A stretch of 51,781 nucleotides of DNA from a virus, in IMG/VR virus record IMGVR_UViG_3300044642_000842, positions 1-51,781 of that record; one strand, 5' to 3'. The notes beneath the pieces are model-generated. The model was given only the letters and a program-made list of their open reading frames with translations, had not been told where the DNA came from and did no database searches. A program made the position numbers and the translations under genes. Positions 6,958-13,947 of this stretch are shown here, one piece after another (the first letter of the stretch is position 1; each line of letters opens with the position of its first letter).

Positions 6958-7671
6958 ATGGCATTACCAAAAATTGGAATTCCTACTTACGAATTAGAGT
7001 TGCCATCCACAGGCAAAACAATTAAGTACAGACCTTTTGTAGTGAAGGAAGAAAAGGTTTTACTACTGGCATTAGAATCTGAAGATGAAAAAGAGATTAA
7101 AAATGCCGTCAAAGATCTGATTAAAAATTGTGTTCAAACTAGGATTAAAGTTGATGACTTGCCTAGCTTTGATTTGGAATATATCTTTTTACGAATTCGT
7201 GCTGCTTCGGTTGGAGAAGAAATTAGTATGATTGTCACTTGTCAAGATGACAATAAGACTCAAGTTGAAGTAACCATTAATTTGAATGAAGTTAATGTGT
7301 TTAAACCTGAAGGACACACTAATAAAATTATGCTTGATGATATCACAGGCATTGTTTTGAATTATCCTGGCATGGATAGATTTATTGATTCTGAATTTTT
7401 GAATAAAGATATTAAAACTGATGAAGTAATTAATTTTATTGCTGATTCGGTTGATCAAATTTTTAACAGTGAAGAGGTGTGGGATTCTTCTACAACTTCT
7501 AAAAAAGAAATGAGGGAGTTTATAGAAGGTCTTACTGCCAAACAATTCGAACCATTACAAAAATTCTATGAAACTATGCCTAGGCTAATTCATAAATTCA
7601 AAGTAATTAATCCAAACACTGGCGAAGAATCTGAATATACGATTGAGGGACTACAGAATTTTTTCGTATAG
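6958..7671 (+). CDS. 26: Baseplate hub subunit gp26 / tail assembly chaperone
   Basis: The 237-aa protein resembles T4 gp26 (208 aa): PKIGIPTYELELPSTGKTIKYRPFVVKEEK at the N-terminus, the ALESEDEKEIKNAVKDLIKNC helix and LPSFDLEYIFLRIRAASVGE. gp26 takes part in assembling the baseplate hub and is probably not a major virion component. The C-terminus runs LIHKFKVINPNTGEESEYTIEGLQNFFV and stops at 7669-7671. A slippery heptamer and hairpin at this stop predict that a fraction of ribosomes shift to -1 and continue for 60 codons into the gp51-like frame, giving about 296 aa. This mirrors the lambda G/GT chaperone pair lying upstream of a tape-measure gene. Confidence 0.85.
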   Translation: MALPKIGIPTYELELPSTGKTIKYRPFVVKEEKVLLLALESEDEKEIKNAVKDLIKNCVQTRIKVDDLPSFDLEYIFLRIRAASVGEEISMIVTCQDDNKTQVEVTINLNEVNVFKPEGHTNKIMLDDITGIVLNYPGMDRFIDSEFLNKDIKTDEVINFIADSVDQIFNSEEVWDSSTTSKKEMREFIEGLTAKQFEPLQKFYETMPRLIHKFKVINPNTGEESEYTIEGLQNFFV

Positions 7672-7690
7672 CACTCTTCCAGAATAGCTT
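7659..7690 (+). promoter_or_regulatory. Programmed -1 ribosomal frameshift signal
   Basis: T TTT TTC occupies 7659-7665 with TTT and TTC in the gp26 frame. It is followed by a 7-nt spacer (GTATAGC) and a 9-bp stem ACTCTTCCA (7673-7681) with TGGAAGGGT (7690-7698), including one G-T pair and an 8-nt loop. The gp26 stop (7669-7671) lies in the spacer. Confidence 0.8.
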
Positions 7691-7847
7691 GGAAGGGTAC
7701 TTTAGAACTAATTTTGCTTTGATCCAGTATCATAAATACTCTTTAGCAGAAGTAGAAAATCTTATTCCTTGGGAAAGAGAAGTGTATACATCTTTGTTAA
7801 TTCAACATCTTAAGGAAGAGGAAGCAAAGAGAGCAGCTAATCAATGA
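7659..7847 (+). CDS. 51: gp51-like extension expressed by -1 frameshift from gp26
   Basis: The -1 frame after the heptamer reads RIALFQNSLEGYFRTNFAL, then IQYHKYSLAEVENLIPWERE and VYTSLLIQHLKEEEAKRAANQ to a TGA at 7845-7847. It resembles the short cyanophage proteins called gp51 (baseplate hub assembly catalyst). There is no ATG or GTG at its beginning; the only near-cognate start is a TTG at 7689 that would cut off the conserved-looking FRIALFQNSLEG stretch and sits inside a hairpin without a ribosome binding site. I therefore read it as the C-terminal part of a gp26-gp51 fusion made by frameshifting at 7659-7665. T4 gp51 is much longer (about 250 aa), so the name is provisional. The stop overlaps the next start (ATGA). 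Confidence 0.75.
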   Translation, partial: FFRIALFQNSLEGYFRTNFALIQYHKYSLAEVENLIPWEREVYTSLLIQHLKEEEAKRAANQ

Positions 7848-10800
7848 TACCCGAGAAGGCAATAAAACCAATAATAAAAAACGGCAGGGACAATACTGAA
7901 ATTGCTGTTGGAACTCTTATTGCCTATGGTGTTTTTCCTCACACAACTGAGGGCATAGAAAAAGCTAAGAAGCTAATTGCCGAGTCTGAAAATTGGTTGG
8001 TGCCATCACAACTACCAGATTATTATGATGGTATTGATAGTGATTTAATTGTTGGTAGAGAGACCCCAGGTATTCTATCAATAAGAAAAAAATTAAAAGA
8101 GTTTTATAAAATCTCTGCCGGAACAGAAGAATTTATAGATACAACTGTATACACTCCAGCAGATAAATTTGTTGATGACGGTAAAGAATTTGCTGTAAAA
8201 ATAGAAACTGATCTTGAAGATGCTTTAGAAAAAACATCTAACGAGATCATGGATTCTATTGATGAAATTCTTAGACAAGATCAGGAAAAGTTTGAAGAGT
8301 TTAAAAGAAAACAAGAAGAAGAGTTAAAGAAAAAAATTGAGAAACTCAATACACCAGAAAGAGTTTCTCAAGAACTTACAATAAAAATTCCTCCAGCTCA
8401 TTATATACAGGGAACTGCTGGTAGATGGCAACCAGAATTTGAAAATGATATTGACCACGCCGTATACTTTGCTGGTAAATCTCCATTACCAAAGGGAGCA
8501 AAGCAAAGAGAAGTTCTTAATTGGTTGAAAAGTTTAGGCTTAACGTTTGAACAAATACATGACCACCGTGAGAAAGTATTAGATCAAATTCGAGAAACTA
8601 TTTCTCTTCCTGGTGTTGAAGAAGAGTACCCATATGTTTACATCGATGCTGTTGACCAAGATTTTGTACTGGAAGATGATGAGGAGTATGAAGAAACAGA
8701 AGATGATTTCGAAGATTTAGATGATCTTTTAAATGATGTTAGAAATGATGAAGAAATTTCTGATAAAAAAATAGCAGAAAATATTGAAGAAGAAATCATC
8801 GATGCTGCTGAGGATGAAGAAGATCCTATGGCTGATGCTGATGTAGACATACAAGCCATATTGGATGGGGATGAAGATGAAACAAAAAGTATTACTGAAA
8901 AATTAACTGACACAATAAACAAACCCAAGAAAGAATCTTCTTACGCTAGCAACAAAAAAATTCTGGATTCTATTACCGTAAACTTTGGAAGAATACAAGA
9001 AACATTAAACATTGTAAATCGTAATTTAGAAGAACAGAATACATTAATAAGAGCAAACATTGATACACAACTTGCTGTCGGTGATTTAATAAGTAACCAG
9101 ACAGATCTTTTGGCATCTAAATTTGATTTGATATTGGAACATTTTGAAAGACAGTTACAACATTCTGAAGAACTTGATGAAGTAGAAAAAAGAAAGGCGA
9201 ATGAATCTAAATTAGAAGCACAGCGTGATGCTGCTGGGTCTTCTGACTTTCAAGATCTAACTAAGAAACCTTCTGGTAAAAAAAGAGAAAACAAAATTGA
9301 AAAGTATTTGAAGGGTAAGTTAACCAGAAAACTATATCGTAAACTACCAAAATCTGTAAGGAATGCCAGACAAAAAGTAAGAAAACTTCAACGGGTGCCT
9401 GGTAAAGCTAAAGCGAAAGCAGTGAGTAAAATGACTTCTATGCTTCCTACGAAAGGCAAGCAAGCTGTTGGTACTATGAGTAAAATTCGTGGTATGGGTA
9501 GAGTTGGTAGGATGGCTGGTCCTGCTAGATATGCCTTCGCTGGGCTTGAGTATGGAGAAAGGAAAGCAGAGGGGCAGAGTGAACTTCAGGCACAAGCTGG
9601 GGTTGGTAGCGGGCTTGCTGGGGCAGGTATAGGTGCTGGTTTGGTCAGTGCTGGGGTAGCTTTATTACCAACCGCTCCAACTGGATGGGGTGCTGTTGCG
9701 GCAGGATCATTAATTTTACTTGGGTCTATACTTGGGGGTGCTGCAGCTAGCGGAGCAGCAGATAAAATAACTGGAGCTGATAAAGTAACTGGGGAACATG
9801 AAACTGGTGGATTAACTAAACCAGGAACAGCAATACTTCATGGTACTGAAGCAATTATTAATCGTGATGCTATTGATATGTCACCATTGAATACTCTTGG
9901 TGGTATAATGATTGCTTCAACCACAGAGTATATTAATTCTGCTGGTGCTGTAGCTGCTCCCATAGCACCTTCATTGAGAGGTGTATCAACACAAATGGCG
10001 AGACAATATGATGTTCCTGCTACTTTAGCTCAGACTAATGTTGGTGGTACTTTGCCTAAGATAGATAATGAATTGAAAAAAGTTAGGGAAAAAAGAAAAG
10101 AAACTCCCGAAGAAGAATTAGAAAGTATTGAAAAAGATTTACTACAAACTCAAGATGAAAAATCTTTTGTTGATAAACTATTAAAGATTATTGATCCTGA
10201 TGGAAAGTTTCAAGAGTTATTGAAGAAAATAAATGTACGAAAAAATGATACAACAGATTTTGATCTTGAACTTATAGGTGATGGAGCATTTGATACTGGA
10301 TTAAGAACTGGACCTAGTGGGGTTATTGGTGGTAGTGCTGATTATCATCAAGATCTTTCTTTTGGGCCAGGAGTAAGTATTGAAGATCAACGAAAATTAA
10401 TACTACAACTTGCTGTGGCTTATGATAAAAGTGGTAGAAAAATGGAGTTAAGTAATGAAGGTGTTGGCGGTAGAGTATTTCCTATAAATGGAACTAAAGA
10501 AGAACAAATTAAATGGATAGAAGATGCTAGAGCTGCCCATCGTGCTAGAAATGGTGGTACTGGAAGAGATGCTATTGATTTTTATACTCCTTCTAAAAAT
10601 GAAAATAGATTTGGCAAGTCTGTAGAAAATACTGCTATACTAGCTCCAGTAGTAGAAGGGGGACAAAGAAAATATTCTAGTGGTGGAGCAGGTGGTGCTG
10701 GAATAACAATTACTGATAAGGAAGGAAAAGAAATATTAAAAATTATTCATGGACGAACTGATATTCCTTTGCCCACTGGAGGAGCTATGCCTTCTGTTTC

Positions 10801-11287
10801 GGTAGCCAAACCAGCACCTACCCCAGTAAATAGTTTGTCAGCAGCGGCGACACAAACCACACCAACTCAGCAAGTATCTTCTACACCTAAAGTAGGGGAA
10901 CAATTAGCGGCACAAACCAATGATAATATGGATGGCATGGTTGCTGCTACGTATGGAGCAGGAGTTCCTAAAACTCCGAGATGGATGCAAGAAATAGAAA
11001 GGCAATATAATGAAGTTAAAGATAAGCCATTTAGTCCAGGAACACCGAAGCCAGGAAGAGGAATGGGAGATACGTGGCTCCCTAAGGCGTCATTGGATCA
11101 AGGTAGTCAAATTGCTAGTTTATCTAGATACGAACAAGAATCTGAAAGCAATACGGTAGTAATTAATAATCAATCTTCGCCAATGCCAGCAATGCCTTCT
11201 TCCGGAGGAACAGAAATTATTCAAATGGGTGGAGTTAGTTCTTCTGAGTTATTAAAAAGTTTGATGTTACAAAGATTAAACGCCTGA
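7844..11287 (+). CDS. Large tail protein, tape-measure/hub-like (paralogue 1)
   Basis: The 1147-aa protein starts in the gp51-frame stop, the position a tape-measure gene takes after frameshifting chaperones. In order: a helical N-terminus; a very acidic stretch (about residues 275-350, EDDEEYEETEDDFEDLDD); a coiled-coil region (about 380-470); a basic Lys/Arg segment; a hydrophobic Gly/Ala region (about 585-640, GAGLVSAGVALLPTAPTGW); then GGLTKPGTAILHGTEAIINRD near 653-673, and a Gly/Pro/Ser-rich C-terminus ending SSELLKSLMLQRLNA. A globular part near 805-910 (SADYHQDLSFGPGV, GRDAIDFYTP) is unrecognised. Coiled-coil, LEAQRDAA and HGTE elements recur in the next gene, so the two are paralogues. 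T4 gp29 is the functional analogue I would test first. Confidence 0.6.
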   Translation: MIPEKAIKPIIKNGRDNTEIAVGTLIAYGVFPHTTEGIEKAKKLIAESENWLVPSQLPDYYDGIDSDLIVGRETPGILSIRKKLKEFYKISAGTEEFIDTTVYTPADKFVDDGKEFAVKIETDLEDALEKTSNEIMDSIDEILRQDQEKFEEFKRKQEEELKKKIEKLNTPERVSQELTIKIPPAHYIQGTAGRWQPEFENDIDHAVYFAGKSPLPKGAKQREVLNWLKSLGLTFEQIHDHREKVLDQIRETISLPGVEEEYPYVYIDAVDQDFVLEDDEEYEETEDDFEDLDDLLNDVRNDEEISDKKIAENIEEEIIDAAEDEEDPMADADVDIQAILDGDEDETKSITEKLTDTINKPKKESSYASNKKILDSITVNFGRIQETLNIVNRNLEEQNTLIRANIDTQLAVGDLISNQTDLLASKFDLILEHFERQLQHSEELDEVEKRKANESKLEAQRDAAGSSDFQDLTKKPSGKKRENKIEKYLKGKLTRKLYRKLPKSVRNARQKVRKLQRVPGKAKAKAVSKMTSMLPTKGKQAVGTMSKIRGMGRVGRMAGPARYAFAGLEYGERKAEGQSELQAQAGVGSGLAGAGIGAGLVSAGVALLPTAPTGWGAVAAGSLILLGSILGGAAASGAADKITGADKVTGEHETGGLTKPGTAILHGTEAIINRDAIDMSPLNTLGGIMIASTTEYINSAGAVAAPIAPSLRGVSTQMARQYDVPATLAQTNVGGTLPKIDNELKKVREKRKETPEEELESIEKDLLQTQDEKSFVDKLLKIIDPDGKFQELLKKINVRKNDTTDFDLELIGDGAFDTGLRTGPSGVIGGSADYHQDLSFGPGVSIEDQRKLILQLAVAYDKSGRKMELSNEGVGGRVFPINGTKEEQIKWIEDARAAHRARNGGTGRDAIDFYTPSKNENRFGKSVENTAILAPVVEGGQRKYSSGGAGGAGITITDKEGKEILKIIHGRTDIPLPTGGAMPSVSVAKPAPTPVNSLSAAATQTTPTQQVSSTPKVGEQLAAQTNDNMDGMVAATYGAGVPKTPRWMQEIERQYNEVKDKPFSPGTPKPGRGMGDTWLPKASLDQGSQIASLSRYEQESESNTVVINNQSSPMPAMPSSGGTEIIQMGGVSSSELLKSLMLQRLNA

Positions 11288-11322: not shown

Positions 11323-13947
11323 ATGTCGGCAGGCACACAGGGTTTTACAGATACTCGAAAAGATACTAATCACATTGGTGCTGTTATTAGTAAGGTGCTT
11401 GAGGCAAGAAAACTTGCTGAGCAAGAAAGGGAATACGCTGAATCAGTAGCAGAAAAATATCAAACCTCACTGGAAGAATCTGGAATACAACGAGGATATT
11501 TTTTCAAGAAAGCATTAAGATGGAAGTTTGGCGGGGAATTTAAAGCTAAGAAACAAGCACAGTTACAAACTTGGAAATCTCGTGCTGACTTATTTAAATC
11601 TGCTGCCACTGGCAAATCAGGTAGGAATAAACTAAACAAGTTTGAAAGATCACAAGCGATCTTTGATATGTTTAAATCTGGTGATAAGCCAAAAACATTT
11701 AGAGATAAATTTAAACCATTATATGAAGGATTTGTAGATGATCCGATGGCTAGACCACAAAGTCATTGGGTTAAGCCAGGAGCAAGAAAGAAAATACAAA
11801 AAGCAACTTCCAGAAGTAATCGTGTAAGTAAAGAAGATATTCTGAATTCTCTTTCTGCCATCACTGATTCAATTGAAAGGGTTGCTGAATCTATATCAGA
11901 AAAAAATAAAGTAATTGCTGATCAGATGGTTCATTCATCTGTCTTACAAGGCATGATGCACCAGCAGCTTAAGACAAGTAACGATTCTTTAGAAGATAAA
12001 TTACAAAAAATTGTTGATGTTTTATCTAATCAAACTCAATACCAAAAACAATCTGTAGATAAAATTGAAGCAAAATCTGCTGAAAATAAATTAGAAAGAC
12101 AAAAAGATGCTGCTAGTATAGTTAATTTTGATGACCTCACTACTAAAGAAGATGAGAGTAAAATAGCAGCAACTTCTGCTCAGGACATGGAGTTCCAGCA
12201 AATGTCTGCTTACGAGCAGAATGACATACCACAAGCAGAAACTGGCGGTATTATTTCTGGTCCTGACAGTGGGTATCTTGCCAAACTTCATGGCAACGAA
12301 ATGGTCATTCCATTAGATAATAATTATACACAAGGAGAACCTAGTGCTATTGATGGGAAGGTTAGACCTAAACCACAACAGCCTATTGCCACTCCAAAAA
12401 GTATTGAATCAATGCCCAAGTATGAAATGGGCACCAGTAAAATTGTTAATAATTATCCTAAGTATGAAATGGGGAATAGCACAGTAAATTCTGCTCCCAT
12501 AACGTCTAAGTTTGGATTCGATACAACAAAAAATATAACTGGCATTGCTGGGGGAGGAACTACCGAAAGTTCTAAATTAACTCAATCAATGGTTGATGTC
12601 ATGTCATTGCCGATGATGGCTGCTGGAGGAACATTACTTTCGGCAACTACAAAGTATATGCAAAGTTTGGGTGGGGAAGGAGCAAATATAAACCCAGAAA
12701 TAGAAAGAGTATCAAGACCTATTGCCAACGTATTTGGATTGCCTCCAACAATAGTAAGTGCTGCTAAGGGAAGCACTTCAAGAAGAGCTGTTGGAGAGGA
12801 AGAACAAAAAGAAGACGGCGAATCCAAGAAAGATTTATTTGCTAAACTCACTGATGGGTTTGGTAAGTTACTTGAAAAACTTGGTAATAGTATTAATAAT
12901 AGACCAACAGATACTACTACAGATGATGACACAACAGGAAACGGTCCAGGTGGAAGTGGTCAAGATTTTGCCACATTAGCAACTATTGCTGCTCTAGAAT
13001 CTGGGTCTGCTCAAGGACAAGCTGATGTTGCTCAATCCGTATATAATAGATTGGGAGATACTGGTCAAATGTATGGGAAATCTATTACAGAAATTTTAAC
13101 TAGAGATAATCAATATCAAGTAGCTTTTAAAGATCCGAATGCTAGTAGTGGCGAGGGAGCAAAAGTGGCGGATGTATTTAAGAATATTAAAAACGAGGAT
13201 GATGCTGCAAAAGCAATCATGTATTATTATTCTAAACGAGGTAGACCAGTAACTGAAGAACAGGCAAGACAAATGTATCGCTCATCTGCTAAAGCAATTT
13301 CTGATGCTAAATTGAGAGAAAATGCTGCTAGACATGTTGGTGGTAGAACTGAATTTTTGGGTAGAGGATTGGGGGGAGCTGGGTCTGTTTCTAGAGGTGG
13401 TGGATCAGATAATGATTTTTTTGCTGCTTATGGATCTAGAACACAGATGGCTAGAGGAGCACAAGCAGCGCCATCTGGATTATTTAATGCTCCCTCACCT
13501 TCTCAATCAGCACCTCAAACACCAGCACAACTTGGTCAAGCAATAACGAGTAATTATGGTCTTAAAGTTGGTCAAGAAAGACAATTCACCCACCCAGAAT
13601 ATGGAACAATAAAAGCACATAAAACAGCAACTGGATTTGATTTTTATGATGGTCCTACGAAATTAGATATGTCCAAACCACAAGGTAAAGCAATTGTGGA
13701 ATATTTTAAATCTACTAATGGTGGGCAGAAAATATCTCCGCCGCCAGCAGGACAACAGATATCTTCTCTTTCAACTTCATCTTCAAAATCTTCTGGTGGA
13801 GGAATAACTGTATTAAATACAGGTGGTGGGCAACAAATTGCTTCTGCTGGTTCGAGTCCTCAACCATCTGCTGATGGTGGGGTAGAATCTGGTAGAAATC
13901 CTACTCAAGATTTCTTTAGTAATTCATTCTCGTTAGGTGTAGGATAA
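11323..13947 (+). CDS. Large tail protein with SleB-like cell wall hydrolase domain (paralogue 2)
   Basis: The 874-aa protein shares with the previous one a coiled coil (about 170-260) ending LERQKDAASIVNFDDLT, then GGIISGPDSGYLAKLHGNEM near 307-326 and a small-residue GGTLLSATTKYMQSLGGEG region. Residues about 547-680 look like a SleB/hydrolase-2 domain: ATIAALESGSAQGQADVAQS then VYNRLGD and SITEILTRDNQYQVAF, with Glu in ALESG as the candidate catalytic residue. Such domains cut peptidoglycan, so this tail-borne enzyme may replace the lysozyme domain that the gp5-type hub here lacks. The ATG at 11323 has ATAGGAGAAT upstream, and the stop overlaps the gp27 start. Confidence 0.7.
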   Translation: MSAGTQGFTDTRKDTNHIGAVISKVLEARKLAEQEREYAESVAEKYQTSLEESGIQRGYFFKKALRWKFGGEFKAKKQAQLQTWKSRADLFKSAATGKSGRNKLNKFERSQAIFDMFKSGDKPKTFRDKFKPLYEGFVDDPMARPQSHWVKPGARKKIQKATSRSNRVSKEDILNSLSAITDSIERVAESISEKNKVIADQMVHSSVLQGMMHQQLKTSNDSLEDKLQKIVDVLSNQTQYQKQSVDKIEAKSAENKLERQKDAASIVNFDDLTTKEDESKIAATSAQDMEFQQMSAYEQNDIPQAETGGIISGPDSGYLAKLHGNEMVIPLDNNYTQGEPSAIDGKVRPKPQQPIATPKSIESMPKYEMGTSKIVNNYPKYEMGNSTVNSAPITSKFGFDTTKNITGIAGGGTTESSKLTQSMVDVMSLPMMAAGGTLLSATTKYMQSLGGEGANINPEIERVSRPIANVFGLPPTIVSAAKGSTSRRAVGEEEQKEDGESKKDLFAKLTDGFGKLLEKLGNSINNRPTDTTTDDDTTGNGPGGSGQDFATLATIAALESGSAQGQADVAQSVYNRLGDTGQMYGKSITEILTRDNQYQVAFKDPNASSGEGAKVADVFKNIKNEDDAAKAIMYYYSKRGRPVTEEQARQMYRSSAKAISDAKLRENAARHVGGRTEFLGRGLGGAGSVSRGGGSDNDFFAAYGSRTQMARGAQAAPSGLFNAPSPSQSAPQTPAQLGQAITSNYGLKVGQERQFTHPEYGTIKAHKTATGFDFYDGPTKLDMSKPQGKAIVEYFKSTNGGQKISPPPAGQQISSLSTSSSKSSGGGITVLNTGGGQQIASAGSSPQPSADGGVESGRNPTQDFFSNSFSLGVG

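Follow-up and report, generated by a model that had tools for sequence, protein, structure and literature searches.

In bacterial dnaX, the cassette for −1 frameshifting consists of an SD-like element, a slippery heptamer and a downstream hairpin. In phage lambda, a −1 frameshift that gives rise to gpG and gpGT was reportedly described by Xu, Hendrix and Duda in 2004. The abstract of Vladimirov et al. from 2022 is said to name T4 genes 26 and 51 and to report retention of frameshifting by several T4-like groups.

In the passage of the PRFect paper that cites Vladimirov et al. 2022 (PMC10885494), some T4-like phages are described as using a short gene and a longer fusion, not a frameshift, and an excerpt of PMC12846349, citing Vladimirov, Gautam & Davidson 2022 (Virology 566:9-15), attributes poly-T frameshift signals to T4-like TAC-N genes. 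As these citing passages present it, the frameshift principle is not new, having been published for T4-like phages in 2022. Since the chaperone-pair reading is, by the same passages, already in print, the gain here is the depth of comparative evidence and a set of testable RNA signals. The literature searched contained nothing direct on gp26/gp51 frameshifting or on cyanophage ribosome profiling.

The window, that is, the whole stretch analysed, is a virus record of 51,781 bases whose closest relatives with annotation are myoviruses of Synechococcus and Prochlorococcus. An earlier, sequence-only reading had proposed that its gp26 and gp51 frames form a single gene with G/GT-type products. This proposal is supported by conservation, the phase of substitutions, RNA structure and homology, which together argue that one gene very probably gives both gp26 and, through −1 frameshifting, gp26-51, as a chaperone pair of the G/GT type.

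Layout of the gp26/gp51 locus

The elements of the locus are listed in Table 1. Heptamer, spacer and stem are present in the sequence as the earlier reading had described them, and a tenth, G-U pair (7682-7689) is predicted for the stem. The slippery −1 site thus lies within the last codons of the short gene. The gp26 frame matches PF12322 (E 2.3e-69) and phrog_150 (E 4.5e-75), both above cut-off. The −1 frame is open and gp51-like, as had been claimed: it matches phrog_634, 'baseplate hub assembly catalyst' (gp51), with E 1.3e-25, again above cut-off, and has a further match (E 1e-3) to phrog_150 at the C-terminal end of that family. Its length was left out of the evidence, because an open stretch of 60 codons is no great rarity by chance. 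The further claim that it has neither ATG nor GTG is inexact, since a GTG is present at 7782-7784. Both this codon and a TTG at 7689-7691 fall inside the conserved gp51 block, however, and therefore the absence of a usable start stands.

The −1 frame of Aeromonas phage AsFcp_4 contains the gp51 tail at L092:2214-2400, wholly unannotated; in Aeromonas phage 65 (L262), only a short ORF is annotated at the gp51 tail.

Table 1. Features of the gp26/gp51 locus, in positions of the window
Feature	Positions	Strand	Remarks
Short product of the gp26 frame (237 aa; TAC-N, G-like)	6958..7671	+	ATG 6958, TAG 7669-7671
SD-like GAGGGA, probable stimulator	7645..7650	+	8 nt 5' of heptamer; anti-SD duplex energy
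Slippery heptamer T TTT TTC	7659..7665	+	In gp26 phase; conserved in junctions
Spacer GTATAGC, 7 nt	7666-7672	+	Between heptamer and stem; includes gp26 stop
gp26 (0-frame) stop TAG	7669..7671	+	One codon past heptamer
Putative stimulatory stem-loop, 9-10 bp	7673..7698	+	7673-7681 pairs with 7690-7698
−1 frame, gp51 tail (TAC-C)	7665..7847	+	Open to TGA 7845-7847; phrog_634 match
Predicted long product, 296 aa	6958-7665 joined to 7665-7844, stop 7845-7847	+	In silico join
ORF of 1147 aa, probable tape measure	7844..11287	+	Role inferred; ATG overlaps −1 stop (ATGA)

Conservation of the slippery site and coding in the −1 frame

An alignment of junctions from relatives had been proposed as a check on heptamer and stem. 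IMG/VR contigs and phage records supplied 255 readable homologous junctions. An in-phase TTTTTTC or TTTTTTT, at most 9 bases from the gp26 stop, is present in 244 of them. Loss of the heptamer, which the sequence-only reading had named as speaking against it, is not seen among close or middle-distance relatives. The heptamer also occurs in phages distant from the cyanophages, namely DLP_6, YB07, OLIVR5, R10Z, AsFcp_4 and Aeromonas phage 65, and the site of phiN3 reads TTTTTTT. Pattern scans with the R10Z, AsFcp_4 and DLP_6 proteins yielded few loci, and an alignment of 12 proteins was too diverse as a scan query.

Codon usage at the heptamer was analysed in a non-redundant set of 143 junctions, to which the window belongs. 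In all 143, the two Phe codons are preceded by a codon ending in T (77% of Asn/Asp codons elsewhere). The first Phe codon is TTT in 143 of 143 (72% elsewhere), whereas at the second, 133 junctions have TTC and 10 have TTT; no p-value is attached to these counts, because the sequences are related by descent. The recurrence of the heptamer at the gp26 end goes beyond chance: elsewhere in the long frames of the window, only four in-phase T6Y sites are found, each at least 125 codons from a stop.

The junctions without an in-phase heptamer include those of the remote phages PhaxI (L007), Cygsa01 (L093) and D509 (L094). Further exceptions are T4, in which the arrangement is absent, a few junctions with the site 24 bases 5' of the called stop, and two contigs (L066 and L109) whose gp26 frames are broken upstream, most likely by contig errors. 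The three remote phages keep a gp51-like −1 frame with ATT/CTT TTC in place of the heptamer; Cygsa01 and D509 have a TAATG start, and PhaxI has neither heptamer nor TAATG.

The phase of substitutions changes at the heptamer. In 69 of the 143 junctions, window included, the second frame is open with no start of its own: counted from the last −1 stop up to and including codon 9, it has no ATG, GTG or TTG. In these 69, variable bases 5' of the heptamer are mainly 0-frame third positions and those 3' of it −1-frame third positions; pairwise differences at bases 13-29, counted by −1-frame codon position 1/2/3 in the start-less junctions, are 2473/2039/5885. The first codon after the slip (−1 codon 2) encodes Arg (CGN, with N free) in 66 of 77 junctions lacking an early start, while the 0-frame residue from the same bases varies between Ala, Gly and Val. 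Of the 143 junctions, 60 do possess an ATG as −1 codon 4 or 5, and the Arg is still kept in 48 of these. Since the Arg is kept by synonymous changes whether or not there is an ATG, the codons ahead of any start are coding.

These data also bear on stop-restart coupling, in which gp51 would be a separate small protein started at the gp26 end from an overlapping TAATG or another nearby start. The ATG at −1 codon 4 or 5, the TAATG of, e.g., Sf-FR1, R10Z, Cygsa01 and D509, and the separate annotation of gp51 in GenBank records would fit such coupling, but neither the start-less junctions nor the coding constraint ahead of any start is expected from it. The SD-like motif, moreover, lies about 19 nt 5' of TAATG but 8 nt 5' of the heptamer. 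Overall, stop-restart coupling is very improbable. A gp51 start codon with a ribosome binding site in close relatives had been listed among the observations that would count against frameshifting; start codons next to the gp26 stop do exist in some relatives, but they stand beside an intact heptamer and do not replace it. Reinitiation at this ATG may add free gp51 in some relatives.

One might suspect an error in sequencing, or a formerly fused gene whose frame was broken by a recent mutation, given that T6 runs are prone to indel errors and that a fused form exists in T4. The comparison of junctions already refutes it: hundreds of isolates and contigs, independent of one another, share the break at exactly this base, a 0-frame stop follows immediately, and the coding phase changes there, which leaves this explanation a negligible probability. 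Stop-codon readthrough or a +1 slip, for which the sole point is the stop close to the gp26 end, is just as implausible, as in the junctions both the 0 frame and the +1 frame run into a stop after a few to some tens of bases, and gp51 homology is confined to the −1 frame. A −1 slip at the heptamer is thus the preferred reading.

RNA signals and the downstream frame

The segment 7640-7720 folds with −21 kcal/mol (z −3.1), a value reached by 1 of 200 shuffles, and the window hairpin has −13.3 kcal/mol (z −3.7), with none of 100 synonymous recodings equally stable. The 9-bp stem is complete in 38 of 47 close relatives. The proposed alignment does reveal stem compensation: at pair 7674-7697, 30 of the 47 have C-G and 11 have G-C, with a Leu to Val change on one side and a silent change in Gly on the other, which may represent a single event on the tree. 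Mean free energy lies 4.25 s.d. below that of synonymous recodings in the 47 close relatives and 2.37 below in the 96 others. P-SSM2-like phages have a stem of other sequence, 5 nt past the heptamer, with 10 or 11 of 11 pairs formed in 35 of 37. Hairpin strength is uneven, and some relatives have little hairpin, which speaks against the frameshift reading, as do the three remote phages that lack the heptamer.

Upstream, the SD-like stretch pairs with the anti-SD at a mean of −6.6 kcal/mol in the 143 junctions, compared with −1.4 in control stretches. The pairing exceeds that of synonymous recodings (z −1.16), and part of this signal is accounted for by glycine conservation. GAGGGA is a probable stimulator of the slip.

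The sequence-only reading had called the next gene tape-measure-like. Position and make-up fit, but no profile names a tape measure for the 1147-aa ORF (7844-11287): its match is phrog_11440, whose function is not named, and its R10Z counterpart has a weak tape-measure match (E 3.7e-5). On position and make-up, the ORF is a probable tape measure. Its ATG overlaps the −1-frame TGA by 4 nt (ATGA, 7844-7847), and in 97 of 142 relatives the downstream ORF starts at −5, −1 or +2 of the −1-frame stop. Because the ATG overlaps or abuts this stop, only slipped ribosomes would reach it, and translation of the tape measure might conceivably be coupled to the frameshift, a doubtful idea suggested by the layout; if true, the level of the tape measure would be tied to that of the long chaperone.

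A second long ORF (874 aa, 11323-13947) carries the motif LHGNEMVIPL, resembling the LHGTEAIINR stretch of the 1147-aa ORF, and is possibly a further tape-measure-like or tail lysin protein.

Chaperone fold, T4 counterparts and comparison with known systems

An AlphaFold2 model of gp26, built from 55 sequences, has a mean pLDDT of 87. Its N-domain (residues 1-87) best matches the HK97 tail assembly chaperone (TAC) 2OB9 (Z 7.9, 84 residues, rmsd 4.1), followed by YqbN 3KLU (Z 7.7) and 5IR0 (Z 4.8), with the other matches listed at 3.6 or less, so that the top two stand well clear of the unrelated entries; Foldseek gives a probability of 0.93 but an E of 0.5. A PDB sequence search found no relative of gp26 or of T4 gp51. 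The model supports a TAC fold of the short product with moderate strength, and assignment as a tail assembly chaperone is supported by the fold match together with the locus, as a Z under 8 alone would be weak.

In T4, gp51 aligns with positions 13 to 280 of the 282 in phrog_150 and has a second match in phrog_634, while the gp26 match to phrog_150 reaches only 235. A profile of in silico frameshifted fusions aligns T4 gp51 across the join (E 1e-14, compared with 1e-8 for the tail alone) and T4 gp26 only as far as Phe-Phe. Since gp51 aligns through the join and gp26 only with the short product, T4 carries the short and long forms as two genes, in line with the citing passages on T4-like phages. 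T4 gp26 and gp51 are paralogues (L088:4803-6229), gp51 being a one-frame gp26-like domain with a gp51 tail. T4 gp51 is needed for assembly yet absent from the particle (PMC3004832).

For the slip itself, the ratio of the two products and their division of labour, we infer the following course. Most ribosomes would read to the gp26 stop and make the short chaperone. A minority, paused by the hairpin ahead and probably also by the SD-like contact behind, would slip back one base while TTT TTC is occupied by two Phe-tRNAs, which would then pair anew with TTT TTT, and would continue in the −1 frame to give the 296-aa chaperone with its gp51 tail. If roles analogous to those of lambda gpG/gpGT apply, the short domain would be the one that coats the tape measure, and recruiting tube protein would fall to the tail domain. 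With high likelihood, this settles the expression mode of cyanophage gene 51, and many records would carry the gene wrongly split or missing. Although the name hub assembly catalysts has long been in use for T4 genes 26 and 51, they would clearly correspond to a frameshifted chaperone pair in a version with two genes.

As in lambda gpG/gpGT, the short gene would end with a −1 slip, the long product would bear an extra C-terminal domain, and a tape measure, here a probable one, follows downstream. Unlike in lambda, the heptamer is a different one, the stop comes one codon past the slip, and gp26 is longer, with only its first ~87 residues matching the solved TAC fold. With bacterial dnaX it shares SD-like element, heptamer and hairpin in the same order, but the gene is unrelated and the slip here lengthens the product. 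T4 gp26 is the homologue of the short product and T4 gp51 that of the long fused product, whereas in T4 these are separate genes that lie apart on opposite strands (gene 26 minus, gene 51 plus) and no frameshift is involved. With the TACs of T4-like phages (Vladimirov et al. 2022), as far as excerpts of the citing papers describe them, the locus has in common the TAC-N/TAC-NC genes, the poly-T slippery signals (PMC12846349) and the pairing of a short with a long fused gene (PMC10885494).
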